64,000 bases of DNA from the NCBI RefSeq assembly GCF_037076455.1, contig NZ_AP028679.1, positions 2,929,501 to 2,993,500 of the forward strand, given 5' to 3'. A program made the translations under genes and the position numbers. Below are positions 24,537 through 32,496 of the stretch, in pieces. The DNA comes from Desulfoferula mesophila (lineage in GTDB: Bacteria; Desulfobacterota; Desulfarculia; Desulfarculales; Desulfarculaceae). The notes below the pieces were generated by a model. The model did no database searches. It saw only the letters and a program-made list of their open reading frames with translations, and had not been told where the DNA came from. Position 1 is the first letter of the stretch; every line of letters begins with the position of its first letter.

Positions 24537-24974
24537 CTAATGACGGCGGTAGTGACGAATAAGGCCCGCCACCACCCCCAGCACCCGAACCTGTTCATGG
24601 CGCAGGACGATGGGGTCCATGGCGGGGTTGGCCGGCTCCAAGCGGATGTGGTCGGGCTCCAGGTAGAATTTCTTGAGGGTCACGTCGCTTTCGTTGATCA
24701 GGGCCACCACGGTCTGGCCGTTCTCGGCGGTATGGCGCTCTTCCACCACGATGACGTCACCGGGTCGGATGTTCTCCTCGATCATGGAGTCGCCCTTAAC
24801 CTCCAGGGCGAAGGTGCGGTAGCGCCCCAGCATGTCCTGGGGGATGGACACGGTGCGGCTCTCGGCCACCGCCTCGATGGGCGCGCCCGCCTGCACCACT
24901 CCCAACAGGGGCACCTCCACCTCGTCCAGGGATATCTCGCAAAAGCCCAAATCCTCCAGAGTTATGCCTGCCAT
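24537..24974 (-). CDS. LexA/UmuD-like S24 self-cleaving protein lacking a DNA-binding domain
   Basis: This 145-residue protein has the S24 fold: a cleavage site A29-G30 (VVQAGAP), the nucleophile Ser in KGDSMIEENIRPGD and the catalytic Lys in VTLKKFY. The N-terminal winged helix that LexA uses to bind DNA is absent. An in-frame TAG upstream and an AGGAG site with a 6-base spacer fix the start. It therefore resembles UmuD or a LexA core, but no umuC-like gene is adjacent. Autocleavage with RecA filament is expected but unproven. Its promoter overlaps an inverted repeat. Confidence 0.85.
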   Translation of the reverse strand: MAGITLEDLGFCEISLDEVEVPLLGVVQAGAPIEAVAESRTVSIPQDMLGRYRTFALEVKGDSMIEENIRPGDVIVVEERHTAENGQTVVALINESDVTLKKFYLEPDHIRLEPANPAMDPIVLRHEQVRVLGVVAGLIRHYRRH

Positions 24975-24992
24975 AGTCGTCTCCTGTTGATA

Positions 24993-25036
24993 TACGTTCG
25001 TCTAGTATGCTATACAAACGTAGGCATTCTTGTCAA
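24993..25036 (-). promoter_or_regulatory. Promoter and operator-like repeat of the LexA-like gene
   Basis: On the minus strand, TTGACA (25036-25031) and TATAGC (25014-25009) are 16 bases apart. TACGTTCG (24993-25000) and CAAACGTA (25015-25022) form an imperfect inverted repeat that flanks the -10 box. A repressor bound here would block transcription, as expected for an SOS-type or phage-type control. Confidence 0.55.
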
Positions 25037-25088: not shown

Positions 25089-25922
25089 ATGATCATCGAT
25101 GTGCACACCCATATTTTCCCGCCCGAGATGCTCTCCGACCGGGCACGTTTTTGCGAAGGCGAACCGGCCTTTGCGGCCATATACGCCGATCCCACGGCTC
25201 CCATGGTCACGGCGGAGGGCCTGGTGGAGGCCATGGACTTAGACCAGGTGGACGTCTCCTGGGCGGTGGGCTTTCCCTGGCTCAAGGAAGAAAATGCCCG
25301 TCTGCACAACGACTATCTCATGGACGCGGTAGCTCGTTTTCCCCAGCGTTTGCGGGGCCTGGCCGCGGTGCACCCGCCCCAGGGCTGGGCCCGGCGCGAG
25401 GCGGAGCGGGCCCTGGCCGGAGGGCTGCACGGCCTGGGCGAGGTGGCCTTTTACGACAGCGACCTGGACGTGGCCAGCCTGGCCCCCCTGTGCCGCCTGA
25501 GCTACGAGGCCGACCGTCCCATCTTGTTGCACACCAACGAACCGGTGGGCCACCAGTATCCCGGCAAGGCGCCCATGACCCTGGTCGCCTTGTACAAGCT
25601 GGTCACCGAGCATTGCCACACCAAGCTGATCCTGGCCCACATGGGCGCGGGGTTGTTTTTCTACGCCTGCCTCAAGCGCGAAGTGTCCCAGGCCCTGGCC
25701 AACGTATGGCTGGATACCGCGGCCGCGCCCTTCCTCTACCGGCCCAGGGCCTATGCCCTAGCTTTGGAGCTGATGGGCGACGACAAGGTGCTCATGGGCA
25801 GTGATTACCCACTCTTGCCGGTGTCGCGTTACCGACGCGAGCTGTCCGACCCCTCGGCTGGCCTCAGCGCCCGCCAGATGGAGATGGTCATGGGCCGCAA
25901 CGCCGCATACCTGATTTCCTGA
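25089..25922 (+). CDS. Amidohydrolase family 2 metal-dependent hydrolase
   Basis: This 277-residue protein has the metal site DVHTHIFPP (HxH) at the start, further ligands in HTNEPVGH and LAHMGAG, and the terminal Asp in GSDYPLLPV. This is the TIM-barrel amidohydrolase/decarboxylase type. The substrate is unknown; relatives hydrolyse or decarboxylate small cyclic or aromatic acids. It starts the transcript that leads to the nuclease/ATPase pair, four bases apart, which is an unusual association. Confidence 0.88.
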   Translation: MIIDVHTHIFPPEMLSDRARFCEGEPAFAAIYADPTAPMVTAEGLVEAMDLDQVDVSWAVGFPWLKEENARLHNDYLMDAVARFPQRLRGLAAVHPPQGWARREAERALAGGLHGLGEVAFYDSDLDVASLAPLCRLSYEADRPILLHTNEPVGHQYPGKAPMTLVALYKLVTEHCHTKLILAHMGAGLFFYACLKREVSQALANVWLDTAAAPFLYRPRAYALALELMGDDKVLMGSDYPLLPVSRYRRELSDPSAGLSARQMEMVMGRNAAYLIS

Positions 25923-25925
25923 GCC

Positions 25926-27179
25926 ATGGCTGATCTGCGCATACTTCTGGCCGCGGATCTGCACCTGGGCGGCCCCGTGGCCGCTCCCGATCCGGAGATG
26001 GAGGCCTCGGCGGGAAACGCCCGGGAACAATCCCTGGAACGGATGGTGGAGCTGTCCCGCCAACATTCGGTGGCCTTGGTGCTCTTGCCGGGCGACGTAT
26101 TCCACACCCCTGAGCCTCCCCTGGGGGCCATATTGGCTCTGCAAAAGGCTCTGGCCGCCTGGCGCGATATGGGCGCCCAGGTGTTCATCTCCCCCGGCAA
26201 CCACGACCCCTGGCTGCCCGGGGGGTTGTGGGAGAGCTGGCCGGAGACCGAGGGCCTGACCATTTTCAGTTCCGAGTCCCAGGGGGTCGAGCTGGCCGAG
26301 ATGGGCCTGTGGGTGGCGGGCGTGGCCCACTCCTCGGAACAGGAGACCGAAGACCTGTCGTGGCTCTTGCCCCCTCCCCCGCCGGGACGCACCGGTTTGG
26401 CGGTCCTGCACGCCAATCTGTCAGGAACCCCCAAACCGGGCAAGCACGAGCCCTACGCCCCGGCGGTGTTGCAGAACCTGCTTTCGGCAACCTTCGACCT
26501 ATGGGCCCTGGGTCACATTCACATTCCCCAGGAGATGGGGCAGCACCCCAAGGTCATTTACGCGGGCACCCCGCAGGGCGCCCACCTGGGCGAGACCGGC
26601 CCCAGAGGGGCCTGGTTGCTGACCTTGTCGGAAGGAGCCCTGAGCGCGGAGTTGGTGAACCTGGCCCCGCTGGTGTTCCACGACCTGGTCCTGGACGATC
26701 TCATGCCGCTGGGAGACCCGGCCGCCTTGGTGGCCAGGTTGAAGGAAAAGCTGGCGAGCGACGCCTCGCCCTGGCCCCAGGAGCACTGCCTGCGCTTGAA
26801 GCTGACCGGCCCCTCGCCTTTGTGGCGGCTGCTGGAACGGGAAGATCCCGAAGTTTTGGCCGCCTCGTTGAAGCGGGAGCTGGGTCTGGCCGGATTGGTG
26901 CTCGATCTGAGCTGCCTGTGCCCCCCGGTGAATGCCCAGGCCCTGGCCACCAGGCCCGACGTGCTGGGCCGCGCCCTGGCCCTGTTGGCCAGGGTGGATG
27001 ATGACGATGCGATCCTGCTCGATCTTGAGCAAGAGTTTATCGGTTTGCTGCACCCGGACACGCGCCGCCTGTCCGACGACGAGCGCCTGGATTGGATGAA
27101 GGGCCTGTTGGACGAAACCCGTTCCCTGACCCTGCGCGACCTGTGGCAAGGCGGTTCGGAGGACGGCGATGCGAATTGA
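25926..27179 (+). CDS. YhaO/SbcD-like DNA metallophosphoesterase
   Basis: This 417-residue protein carries the calcineurin-like motifs AADLHLGG, PGDVFHT, SPGNHDP and LGHIHIPQ in that order. Such proteins are Mn-dependent nucleases that act with an SMC-like ATPase on DNA ends. The following gene supplies that ATPase and overlaps by 11 bases. The C-terminal ~150 residues (from VARLKEKLASDASPW) form the partner-binding region. The YhaO subgroup, rather than SbcD, is suggested by the partner's central membrane segments. Confidence 0.9.
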   Translation: MADLRILLAADLHLGGPVAAPDPEMEASAGNAREQSLERMVELSRQHSVALVLLPGDVFHTPEPPLGAILALQKALAAWRDMGAQVFISPGNHDPWLPGGLWESWPETEGLTIFSSESQGVELAEMGLWVAGVAHSSEQETEDLSWLLPPPPPGRTGLAVLHANLSGTPKPGKHEPYAPAVLQNLLSATFDLWALGHIHIPQEMGQHPKVIYAGTPQGAHLGETGPRGAWLLTLSEGALSAELVNLAPLVFHDLVLDDLMPLGDPAALVARLKEKLASDASPWPQEHCLRLKLTGPSPLWRLLEREDPEVLAASLKRELGLAGLVLDLSCLCPPVNAQALATRPDVLGRALALLARVDDDDAILLDLEQEFIGLLHPDTRRLSDDERLDWMKGLLDETRSLTLRDLWQGGSEDGDAN

Positions 27180-29814
27180 GCGGCTGAGCATCGGCGGCTT
27201 CGGAAGCTTGTCCCCCGGGATGGTGTTGGGTCTGGATCCCGGGCTCAACCTGGTGCTGGCCCCCAACGAGTGGGGCAAGACCACCTTGAGTCATTTCATC
27301 ACGGGGTTGTTCTACGGCTTCGGCCAGCGCAGGGGAGGAAGGCATCCCTACGAGCCCTGGGGCGGCGGCGATACCGGCGGCGAGCTGGTCTACAGCCTGG
27401 ATTCGGGACAGTCCTTCACCTTGGGTCGTCACCTGGACAAGCGCGAGATCCTGACCCTGCGCGACGAGGCGGGCCGGGATGTGCCCCTGGAAAGGCAGCA
27501 GCCCGGCGAGCTCCACCTGGGCCTGAGCCGGGGGGCCTTTTTGACGGTAAGCCGCATAGAGCTGGACGACTTGCAACAGGCCCTGTATGCCGGCGGCGTG
27601 GGTAAAGAGCTGGATAACACCCGCCAGTGGCTGTCCGGCTATTTTTTCGGTGAAGCCGCCACCCGAGGGGAAGTGGCCAACCCGGTGAGCGTTTTGCAAC
27701 GCTGGGCCGCCGAGCGCGAAAGGCTCTACTCCGAAGACCGCCGCAGAGGGGCCGAGACCAAAGCGCTGGCCCAACGCACGGCCCAGGCTCGCGAAACCTT
27801 GGCCCTGGCCCAGGGCCGCGAGGCCCAACTCCGCCAGGTGCGCCGCGAGTTGGAAGACCTGACCAAGCAGACCAAAGAGCTGACCGGTGAGCGCGACGCC
27901 GCCGCTCTTGCGGTGCGGGAGGCGACCAAACACCTGGAACAGGCCCAAACCCTGGCGCGGCGCGACCAGCTGCTGGAAAAGATAGAACAGCTCGCCGCGC
28001 TAGGCCTGGCCGGCGAGGCCGACGAGGCCAGGGCGCGAGACTTGCAAGGCCGGGCCGATTCGTCGGCCAAGCGGGCCGAGTCCGCCAAAACCCAGGCCCA
28101 GCAGGCACGGGAAATGGCGGCGGAGCTGGCGCCCGGCGGGGAGCCGGAGCGCCTGGAGGCCCACCTGCAGGGCCTGCAGGGGTTGCGCTCCGAACTCAAC
28201 GCGACCCACCGCATGCAAGAAGCGGCGGAAAACGACCTGAACCGCCAAACGCGGGCTTTGCAGGACCGCTGGGGCCTGGACACCGCGGCCTTGGCTTCCA
28301 TCGACCCTCACACCTTCCAGGAGGTGGAGCGGCTACGTGGCCAGGCCAGGGAATCCGCCAAGATCAACGAGGCCGCGCGCGTTACCATGATGGCTTCCCT
28401 GCCCGAGTCCAAGCAACTGCCCAAATGGTGGATAGTGGTGGCGTTCATGGCGGGGCTGGGCGGAATCGCCCTCCTGGTGCTGACCTTTCTGACCTATCTG
28501 CCTTGGTGGTGCTCGCTCATCGGCGCGGCCACCATCATGGGCGGTGGGGCCTTGCTCTTGCTATGGCGGGCGCGGCGCAACTACAACAAACTGGCCGACG
28601 AAAAGCTGGCCCAGGCGCTGGCCGCCGCGGAGGAGGCCGAGGCCAAGCACGCGGTCACCGAAAAGGAGTTGGCCCAGGCCCAGGAAAAGCTTCCCCAGGC
28701 TTTGCGCGAGGCTGAAATCATGGACGTCAGCCAGGCCCTGGCCGAGGCCCGCCGGCTGGAGGGCGAACGCGCCTCCCGGGCGAAGGAACGCGCTGAGCTG
28801 GAGAAAAAGCGCGAGGAACTTTTGGCCCAGGCCAAGCAGGCCGCCCCCATGGCTTCGGGGACCATGGAATCGGCCCTGGAAGAGATGCGCAAAAGGGCCC
28901 GCCAGGCCCAGCAGGCGCTGGCCCATGCCGATCGCCTGGACGAGCAGGCCCAGCGGGACGAGGAGATGGCCGCATCCCTGCAGGAGGATCTCAAGCAGCT
29001 TCTCGCCTCCCTCAAACTGACCGACATCGAAGCCCTGGCCCAGGCCCGGGAGCGCGGCCGCCAAATCGACAAGCTGCGGGCCGCGGTCTGGGAGTTGGAG
29101 CAAAACCTGCAAGCGTGCGACCTTCTAACGCCCCACTCGCCGGAGCTGGCCGGAAAAACCCTGGAAAAGCTCCGGGAAGACTTTGCCGCCCTGGACCGCA
29201 AGACCCATGACTTGTCCATACGTCGCGGCGAGTTGACCGGGGAGTTGGAGCACCTGGGCAAAAGCGAGTCGGCGGCCCAGGCCCAGGCCCGCCTGGACTC
29301 CTTGCAACAAGAGCGGGTCGAGCTGGCCCGCAGGCACGACGCCCTGCTGCTGGCCGAGGCCATCCTGACCCGGGCCATGGAGGAGTTCCGTTTGGAGGCC
29401 CAGCCGGGGTTGCTGAAGAAAGCGGGGCGTTTTTTGGCCATGGCCACCGTAGGAGCCTACGAATGGCTGGGCACCGATCTTTTCGACGCGCCGACCAAGG
29501 GAGACCCCGAGATAAGCACCCGGTCCGGCCCCGGCGCGCCGGAACGCGAGATAATCGCGCTGTCCCGGGGCACCAGGGACCAGCTCTACCTGTGTCTGCG
29601 CCTGGCCCTGGCCCAGGAAATCACCGAAAAGGGAGAGTCCCTGCCCTTGATCCTGGACGACCCCTTGGTGAACTTCGACGCGGCCCGCCTGCCGGCCACC
29701 CTGAACATGCTGGGCCGCCTGTCCGCCGAGCGTCAGGTGATCATGCTCACCTGCCATCCGCACCAAGCCGAGTTGTTGGAGCGCAAGTACGGGGCGCACC
29801 GCCTGGAGATTTAG
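27169..29814 (+). CDS. YhaN-like SMC ATPase with central membrane segments
   Basis: This 881-residue ABC-type ATPase has Walker A as APNEWGKTT (first Gly replaced by Ala), a long coiled coil, two adjacent hydrophobic segments near residues 417-465 (IVVAFMAGLGGIALLVLTFL, then a second hydrophobic stretch), a second coil, the signature LSRGTRDQLYLCLRLAL and Walker B LILDDPLVNFD. YhaN of Bacillus has the same internal membrane hairpin, unlike SbcC. It would hold or sense DNA near the membrane for the nuclease partner. The altered Walker A should be checked for activity. Confidence 0.9.
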   Translation: MRIERLSIGGFGSLSPGMVLGLDPGLNLVLAPNEWGKTTLSHFITGLFYGFGQRRGGRHPYEPWGGGDTGGELVYSLDSGQSFTLGRHLDKREILTLRDEAGRDVPLERQQPGELHLGLSRGAFLTVSRIELDDLQQALYAGGVGKELDNTRQWLSGYFFGEAATRGEVANPVSVLQRWAAERERLYSEDRRRGAETKALAQRTAQARETLALAQGREAQLRQVRRELEDLTKQTKELTGERDAAALAVREATKHLEQAQTLARRDQLLEKIEQLAALGLAGEADEARARDLQGRADSSAKRAESAKTQAQQAREMAAELAPGGEPERLEAHLQGLQGLRSELNATHRMQEAAENDLNRQTRALQDRWGLDTAALASIDPHTFQEVERLRGQARESAKINEAARVTMMASLPESKQLPKWWIVVAFMAGLGGIALLVLTFLTYLPWWCSLIGAATIMGGGALLLLWRARRNYNKLADEKLAQALAAAEEAEAKHAVTEKELAQAQEKLPQALREAEIMDVSQALAEARRLEGERASRAKERAELEKKREELLAQAKQAAPMASGTMESALEEMRKRARQAQQALAHADRLDEQAQRDEEMAASLQEDLKQLLASLKLTDIEALAQARERGRQIDKLRAAVWELEQNLQACDLLTPHSPELAGKTLEKLREDFAALDRKTHDLSIRRGELTGELEHLGKSESAAQAQARLDSLQQERVELARRHDALLLAEAILTRAMEEFRLEAQPGLLKKAGRFLAMATVGAYEWLGTDLFDAPTKGDPEISTRSGPGAPEREIIALSRGTRDQLYLCLRLALAQEITEKGESLPLILDDPLVNFDAARLPATLNMLGRLSAERQVIMLTCHPHQAELLERKYGAHRLEI

Positions 29815-31686: not shown

Positions 31687-32496
31687 TTAGTGCCAGTCAA
31701 CAGTAGAAACTTCAGGTGAATTTATAGCGAGGTATTCGGCTGGTGTCAGGTTGCCGAGGGACTCATGAGGGCGTTCCTCGTTGTACTCCTTGAGCCAGCG
31801 ATCCGTGATTTCCCGCACCTCGCTTAGACGGGAAAATATGTAAAGGTCCAGCACCTCTTCCCGATAGGTCCGGTTGAAGCGTTCAATGTATGAATTCTGG
31901 GTGGGCTTGCCGGGCTGAGTGAAACCCAAATCGATACTATGCTCCTCGGCCCATTGGGCCATAGCTACACTGACCAGCTCCGGGCCGTTGTCCAGCCTCA
32001 GCCTGGACGGGTAGCCCCGCCAGGCAGCGATACGCTCCAGCACTCGGATTATCCTTTGGGCGGGGAGATTGACGTCCACCTCTATGGCCAGGGCCTCTCG
32101 ATTGAAATCATCCACCACATTAAAGGTCCTGAATCGCTGGCCGCCATACAGGGCATCGCTCATGAAGTCCACCGACCAGCAGATATTGGCCAGATCCGGC
32201 ACTGCAAGCGGCTGGGGATCACGAGTAGGCAGGCGCTTCTTACCCTTCCTGCGAAGGTTTAGCTTCAGGGCGCAGTACACTCGGTACACCCGCTTGTGAT
32301 TCCAGCCATGTCCATCCCGCCGAATTACTTGAAACAGTTTGGCAAAGCCGTATCTGGGATATTTGTCTGCCAGCGAAGTCAGCGCCTCGATGATCGGACC
32401 ATCGTCGCGGGGCTTGGGTCGGTAGGCATAAACCGACCGGCTCAGCCTCAGGGCGCGGCAGGCCCGGCGAATGCTCAGACCGTGCTCTTTGCACAT
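31687..32496 (-). CDS. IS3-family transposase OrfB (IS a)
   Basis: This 269-residue rve integrase-core protein has the DDE residues in SVDFMSDAL, LRLDNGPEL and NSYIERFN. Upstream of the ATG the frame stays open as KNIRPAGRRDLAKF, which joins orfA through a minus-one shift at the A-rich stretch before the orfA stop. The complete enzyme is the OrfAB fusion. It ends inside the terminal inverted repeat. Confidence 0.93.
   Translation of the reverse strand: MCKEHGLSIRRACRALRLSRSVYAYRPKPRDDGPIIEALTSLADKYPRYGFAKLFQVIRRDGHGWNHKRVYRVYCALKLNLRRKGKKRLPTRDPQPLAVPDLANICWSVDFMSDALYGGQRFRTFNVVDDFNREALAIEVDVNLPAQRIIRVLERIAAWRGYPSRLRLDNGPELVSVAMAQWAEEHSIDLGFTQPGKPTQNSYIERFNRTYREEVLDLYIFSRLSEVREITDRWLKEYNEERPHESLGNLTPAEYLAINSPEVSTVDWH

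Follow-up and report, generated by a model that had tools for sequence, protein, structure and literature searches.

What use could a bacterium with a normal LexA make of a second LexA-like protein that has no DNA-binding domain? The question is raised by a short gene in the 64-kb window (the whole stretch of DNA that was analysed), which comes from a genome, here G000, that consists of one contig of 4,479,191 bases.

24537–24974, minus strand: stand-alone S24 gene, 145 aa, apparently monocistronic, recognised by Pfam and NCBIfam matches and kept in 18 of 20 family genomes

Peptidase_S24 (E 1.1e-29, residues 22–135) is the sole Pfam family on the protein at E ≤0.01. The NCBIfam equivalog for lexA, TIGR00498, scores it at 116.6 bits, above the cut-off of 110.95, with the score deriving from profile positions 78–201 (of 203) only, and the UmuD model gives 65.5 bits, below its cut-off of 110. 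An N-terminal winged-helix DNA-binding domain is absent by Pfam, by reading of the frame and by a genome-wide domain search. The stop-to-stop frame is 154 aa, and the nine codons that precede the ATG contain no other start codon; with the divergent neighbour beginning at 25089, there is no room for such a domain. The original prediction of a stand-alone S24 protein that lacks both a DNA-binding domain and a longer start thus holds in both respects. The protein resembles LexA in its S24 domain, its Ala-Gly site, its Ser-Lys dyad and in passing the lexA cut-off, but lacks the DNA-binding domain and so is not expected to repress alone. Because that cut-off is passed all the same, automatic annotation may name the protein a repressor, and genomes of the family may carry a second ‘transcriptional repressor LexA’ annotation with no known DNA-binding domain.

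By sequence, the closest solved relative is the LexA of Thermotoga maritima (3k2z, 2.2e-22). An AlphaFold2 model is of moderate quality only (best mean pLDDT 76.8, the remaining four models 47–58); a structure search with it gave 41 matches at E ≤0.001, the best solved ones being LexAs, with UmuD, UmuD' and RecA-bound LexA/UmuD also among them.

The predicted cleavage site and catalytic dyad lie behind a short tail:

24888–24974, minus strand: N-terminal tail, residues 1–29, to be removed if self-cleavage occurs (alignment of 18 homologues)
24885–24890, minus strand: codons of the predicted cleavage site Ala29-Gly30, invariant in 18/18 homologues
24786–24788, minus strand: codon of the predicted catalytic Ser63, invariant in 18/18 homologues
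24672–24674, minus strand: codon of the predicted catalytic Lys101, invariant in 18/18 homologues

That the cleavage site and the Ser-Lys pair are intact, as first proposed, is borne out at the sequence level. The predicted cut leaves 29 residues before it and 116 after; for E. coli UmuD we take the number before the cut to be 24. The alignment of the 18 homologues has a pattern, L..LG..EI.....E.P, that spans the end of the tail with columns L6, G10, E13, I14, E20 and P22 invariant, and a highly conserved C-terminal strand, VLGVVAGLIRH. The tail is nevertheless the less constrained part of the protein, the dN of its first 28 codons exceeding that of the whole protein in 7/8 pairs. In size, in the short tail before the cleavage site, in the S24 domain and in apparent LexA control the protein is like UmuD; it differs in scoring below the UmuD cut-off, in forming a separate clade and in having no umuC beside it, with none seen in the genome. 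With no DNA-binding domain left for cleavage to set free, the invariance of the self-cleavage site calls for a different use of cleavage.

The family sample comprised 20 genomes (Desulfarculaceae-like, G000 included). The 18 stand-alone forms are 69–100% identical, and the other matches are mostly full-length LexAs at 31–43%. By eye, there is no helix-turn-helix upstream of any of the 18 genes, nor inside the longer upstream frames present at six loci (L016, L018, L020, L021, L023 and L029). For the nine genomes in which both proteins could be compared with those of G000, conservation of the stand-alone protein is close to that of LexA (80.7% against 71.6% identity in G002, 67.1% against 71.4% in G011). 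The dN/dS of the stand-alone gene is 0.05–0.19 (8 pairs) and that of lexA 0.07–0.10 (3 pairs), which indicates purifying selection on the stand-alone gene like that on lexA. One could suspect a truncated relic or sequencing artefact of a second lexA, given that the full-length proteins nearest to it are LexAs that carry a helix-turn-helix at the N-terminus, but the recurrence of the same short form in 18/20 genomes, the intact predicted active site in all 18, the low dN/dS and the lack of a winged helix nearby contradict this reading and leave it hardly credible. A frameshift that hides an upstream winged helix, the weak point named in the original prediction, and a missed upstream start are unlikely and were rejected, as the genome-wide domain search finds no winged helix nearby and the same architecture is present in 17 further genomes.

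The stand-alone gene was not found in G010 and G003, assemblies of 500–640 contigs; this may be an assembly gap, because the neighbouring amidohydrolase has no close copy there either. G020, a 99% complete genome from a different family of the order, has the amidohydrolase and no stand-alone S24 gene, its S24 search giving a LexA-length match only. Among 297 genomes sampled across the phylum there is no high-scoring short form outside the family, the weak matches of G155, G174 and G213 lying in short or interrupted frames. Eight of the nine IMG/VR matches are, by eye, repressors whose N-terminus is a DNA-binding domain; the ninth (L222) is a 109-aa frame with no such domain, 31% identical over residues 40–142. 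Phage records with a match number 147, and the two examined are full-length and LexA-like; a zetaproteobacterial match (L073) looks like a damaged gene. None of these is a convincing stand-alone relative outside the family.

The suggested search for a full-length lexA elsewhere in the genome was successful. Two S24 genes exceed the cut-off in G000, the stand-alone gene and lexA at 624 kb, which encodes a complete resident LexA (199 aa, DNA-binding domain included). This lexA is the only gene in the 4.48-Mb genome to pass the cut-off for the LexA DNA-binding domain, and none of 15 weaker matches to the domain lies near the stand-alone gene. These results bear on the idea that the protein is one half of a split repressor, dimerising with a separately encoded DNA-binding protein to control a second damage regulon, an idea suggested by a regulator domain that is otherwise complete and has no DNA-binding domain at all. 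The genome-wide search, which was for the LexA-type domain, offers no candidate partner other than LexA itself, and no conserved neighbour resembles a DNA-binding partner: of 18 loci, 12 have an amidohydrolase as the divergent gene, five a conserved NYN-domain-like protein (judged by eye) and one something else. We consider the split repressor improbable. The same variation, the divergent gene differing in 6/18 loci, led us to reject, as a general explanation, that the protein works together with its neighbours (amidohydrolase, SbcD-like phosphoesterase and AAA protein). The neighbourhood itself includes, divergent from the S24 gene at 25926–29814 of the window, an SbcD-like phosphoesterase followed by an AAA_27/SMC-like ATPase, a pair matched in 9/17 relative loci; an ORF at 31687–32496 resembles an IS3-type transposase by eye.

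The stand-alone protein is only 38% identical to the C-domain of the resident LexA, and its S24 domain is 57–61% identical to the nearest LexAs of Acidobacteriota (Blastocatellia/Pyrinomonadaceae being nearest by identity). A maximum-likelihood tree was made from 78 S24 domains and 128 columns; it contains several long branches and is rooted on two UmuDs. The 18 stand-alone proteins form one clade (support 100/99), which with that root joins nine Acidobacteriota and three Patescibacteria LexAs in a set (96/95), while the 13 resident LexAs form a clade of their own (100/98) and the two UmuDs another. The stand-alone proteins do not group with UmuD, which is represented by those two rows only. 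Taking tree and profile together, the protein is from the LexA branch of the S24 proteins and not a member of the UmuD family, so that of the earlier label ‘LexA/UmuD-like’ the LexA origin stands and UmuD-family membership does not. We read the protein as descended from a LexA that was foreign to the resident lineage, for which we infer transfer, and that lost the DNA-binding domain in the family ancestor. Among the other LexA-like frames gathered, one from Candidatus Jacksonbacteria (L058, 4782–6278) carries LexA_DNA_bind, Peptidase_S24 and N6_N4_Mtase, and so joins a LexA and an N6/N4 DNA methyltransferase in one protein. Two from Patescibacteria (L061 and L067) are similarly long, at 494 and 526 aa, their domain content not having been scanned.

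Control of the gene by a separate LexA, a possibility raised at the outset, can be judged from its promoter.

25007–25036, minus strand: sigma-70-like promoter, TTGACA (25036–25031) and −10 region, 10/12 matches
25010–25025, minus strand: LexA-type box 2, GCCTACGTTTGTATAG, covering the −10 region at a spacing of 20 bp from box 1, PWM 12.1
24990–25005, minus strand: LexA-type box 1, CTAGACGAACGTATAT, surrounding the likely transcription start, PWM 17.4, shuffle p 0.002
24993–25022, no strand assigned: inverted repeat of the first reading, arms of 13 nt (24993–25005 and 25010–25022), 85% complementary, 4-nt gap

The inverted repeat first noticed does exist, but its outer 8-mers, TACGTTCG (24993–25000) and CAAACGTA (25015–25022), 7/8 complementary and originally thought to be the operator, are probably not that. 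The left arm is not kept in relatives, and the repeat is better read as the product of the facing parts of two adjacent LexA-type boxes, the minus-strand sequences facing each other being CTAGACgaacGTATAT and GCCTACgtttGTATAG. Box 1 has one mismatch to a pattern derived from lexA promoters, and the two boxes are the only PWM sites scoring ≥10 in the window. The TTGACA-type −35 element and GTATAGCATAC are kept in the closest relatives; the box pair is present in G000 and in the five genomes nearest to it, where the second site is the weaker in every case (6.2–12.6). A pattern that combines both boxes has a single match in the genome, a circular result in that the pattern was taken from that site.

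The motif itself comes from the upstream regions of 12 family lexA genes, aligned by eye and made into a symmetric PWM, and its consensus, CTATAC-N4-GTATAG, is a candidate LexA operator for the family. When the best site in the 130 nt before each of the 18 stand-alone genes was compared with 500 dinucleotide shuffles, the motif was found at p ≤0.05 in 12/18 promoters, which are related and do not count as independent events. Three promoters (G002, G015, G016) gave p between 0.05 and 0.09 and three (G001, G004, G018) were clearly negative; those of G012, G013 and G017 (p 0.006) are weaker evidence because the ribosome-binding site GTGGAGG there supplies the right half-site. The G000 gene has a LexA-type box in its promoter by both PWM and pattern search. 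In the whole genome, CTAKACNNNNGTATAG matches exactly at lexA only, and with one mismatch at four further places, the stand-alone promoter among them; these top five places in 4.48 Mb thus include the stand-alone promoter, both promoters having been known when the pattern was written. With up to two mismatches the pattern carries no signal, since it is rarer (47 and 51 matches) than its reversed control (94 and 98).

Control genes matter for this motif because GTATAG overlaps the −10 element. The motif was found at p ≤0.05 in 0/16 dinB upstream regions and in 6/17 for recA, mostly as weak sites, with none upstream of recA in G000 (p 0.986). It was found upstream of imuB-like genes in 5/5 of the loci that could be anchored, three of the eight not being anchorable. 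These control counts leave out recA locus L161 and dinB locus L106, both with a partial gene frame, include at least one wrongly placed dinB start (L107), and rest on shuffles of blocks of two bases, cruder than the dinucleotide shuffles used for the 18 promoters. Seven stretches of 6–10 kb contained eight sites scoring >11: six imuB-like genes had one apiece, and of the other two one was at lexA and one elsewhere. The sixth imuB-like locus with the motif, in G006, has its site just inside the longest possible imuB-like frame. Thus, in G000 the motif marks lexA, an imuB-dnaE2-like operon and the stand-alone S24 gene, whereas recA and dinB are without it. The prospect of control by a separate LexA is strengthened in that a full-length LexA is present and a motif trained on lexA promoters matches the stand-alone promoter.

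The likeness to UmuD directs attention to the translesion polymerases. UmuD, which we take to be the manager of Pol V in E. coli, with MucA, ImpA and HumD as its relatives, loses a short tail on cleavage, and this alters its dealings with polymerases. Queries with DinB, ImuB, DnaE2 and E. coli UmuC found nothing at E 0.001 in the window, and nothing in the flanks of 3.5–12.5 kb in 17 relatives. G000 has two Y-family genes, one assigned to DinB by its family model and the other called ImuB-like, so that with both otherwise assigned no UmuC-type gene is seen there. The ImuB-like protein lacks the catalytic acids, having HLNVADF for the HVDMDAF of DinB and SGH for VDE, and in an alignment with DinB and UmuC these acids are lost from the copies of four relatives as well. 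In 6/6 loci read at length, G000 included, a DnaE-type polymerase gene lies directly behind the imuB-like gene; the copies of G013 and G006 match DNA polymerase III alpha models, and those of the five loci other than G013 are 66–73% identical to the G013 copy. By score, an ImuB-like gene is present in 8/20 family genomes and DinB in 17/20. Strict coupling of the stand-alone protein to ImuB-DnaE2 was rejected, since the S24 gene is in 18/20, including genomes in which DinB is the only Y-family gene found (for example G001, G002, G008 and G018; the G001 assembly is one contig, 99% complete).

The architecture of the protein, its conservation and the boxes before its gene are computed, and on these we propose that it is a LexA-controlled, RecA-triggered, self-cleaving accessory protein, of UmuD-like build and LexA-derived, that manages translesion polymerases. 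This is a tentative reading, with nearly as much chance of being right as wrong. For its working we infer LexA repression, damage induction, RecA-dependent cleavage and a polymerase partner. LexA would repress the gene in undamaged cells; RecA filaments on damaged DNA would cause LexA to cut itself, allowing expression; the protein would then dock on the filaments and cut between Ala29 and Gly30; and the cleaved (or uncleaved) dimer would bind and manage DinB and, where present, the boxed ImuB-DnaE2-like pair. It would then be an analogue of UmuD that evolved independently, out of a LexA, in a genome that yielded no UmuC. Several observations count against such a role. No Y-family, UmuC or DnaE2 gene stands near the S24 gene in the window or in the flanks of the 17 relatives, the protein occurs in some genomes with DinB as the sole Y-family gene found, and it is below the UmuD cut-off and outside UmuD in the tree. 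The candidate boxes are weak or missing in 6/18 promoters and the tail is less constrained. The moderate structure model is silent on partners, and polymerase binding is a prediction.

The main alternative is a damage-induced tuner of LexA that would set the timing of the SOS response, either by forming mixed dimers through the C-terminal domain, and so weakening operator binding, or by competing for RecA filaments, and so slowing further LexA cleavage. The C-terminal part of LexA dimerises and meets RecA, and what the stand-alone protein has kept is precisely a LexA-like C-terminal domain, with the strand VLGVVAGLIRH so well conserved, having lost the DNA-binding part; a gene under LexA-type boxes and a protein found also in genomes with no ImuB-like gene fit as well. 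Mixed dimers are made less likely by the low identity to the resident C-domain and by the different LexA clade, and a pure RecA competitor would have no obvious need of a cleavage site, yet the site is invariant. We regard the tuner as rather unlikely. Management of polymerases is favoured over it because invariant cleavage has a well-known parallel in UmuD; the data do not separate the two.

A bolder form of the polymerase proposal is that a UmuD-type manager had a second, independent origin, in which a LexA of foreign origin was stripped of its DNA-binding domain in the family ancestor, came under the resident LexA and now serves DinB, with or without an ImuB-DnaE2 mutasome, through RecA-triggered self-cleavage. 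This we hold to be conceivable but doubtful. If true, loss of its DNA-binding half would have turned a LexA into a UmuD-like protein, which bears on the origin of UmuD itself, and error-prone polymerases may have a self-cleaving manager even in bacteria that lack UmuC. The parts are known and, as far as searches show, their combination is apparently undescribed: a LexA-branch protein of UmuD size with no DNA-binding domain, beside a normal LexA, under its apparent control and kept in one family. Our literature search, of partial coverage, found no published account of the stand-alone protein among the matches listed. A comparable case is UmuDAb of Acinetobacter, an S24/UmuD relative that can exist without an intact umuC (in A. 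baylyi), has an extended N-terminus and is a repressor in bacteria without LexA (PMC3901139). As there described, UmuDAb shares with the stand-alone protein the ability to exist without an intact umuC; the stand-alone protein differs in having lost its N-terminal domain and in coexisting with a normal LexA.

Comparison can also be made with the ImuA-ImuB-DnaE2 mutasome, for which we know of no UmuD-like part. The likeness lies in the imuB-dnaE2-like pairs with the same box in G000 and relatives, and the difference in that no imuA was noticed beside these pairs. The boxed operons are at about 683.2–687.6 kb of G000:C1 (L200, 2234–6563) and at L201, L202, L203, L204 and L205, with neither imuA nor lexA noticed adjoining them at these loci. 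A further source describes Y-family operons with dnaE2 and without imuA, and YolD-type proteins as counterparts of UmuD in Gram-positives (PMC6511836). Near-perfect LexA-type palindromes, candidate operators, also lie at G000:C1:1094926 and 2656333 (L122 and L123); the gene downstream of one of the two matches the RecA family weakly.
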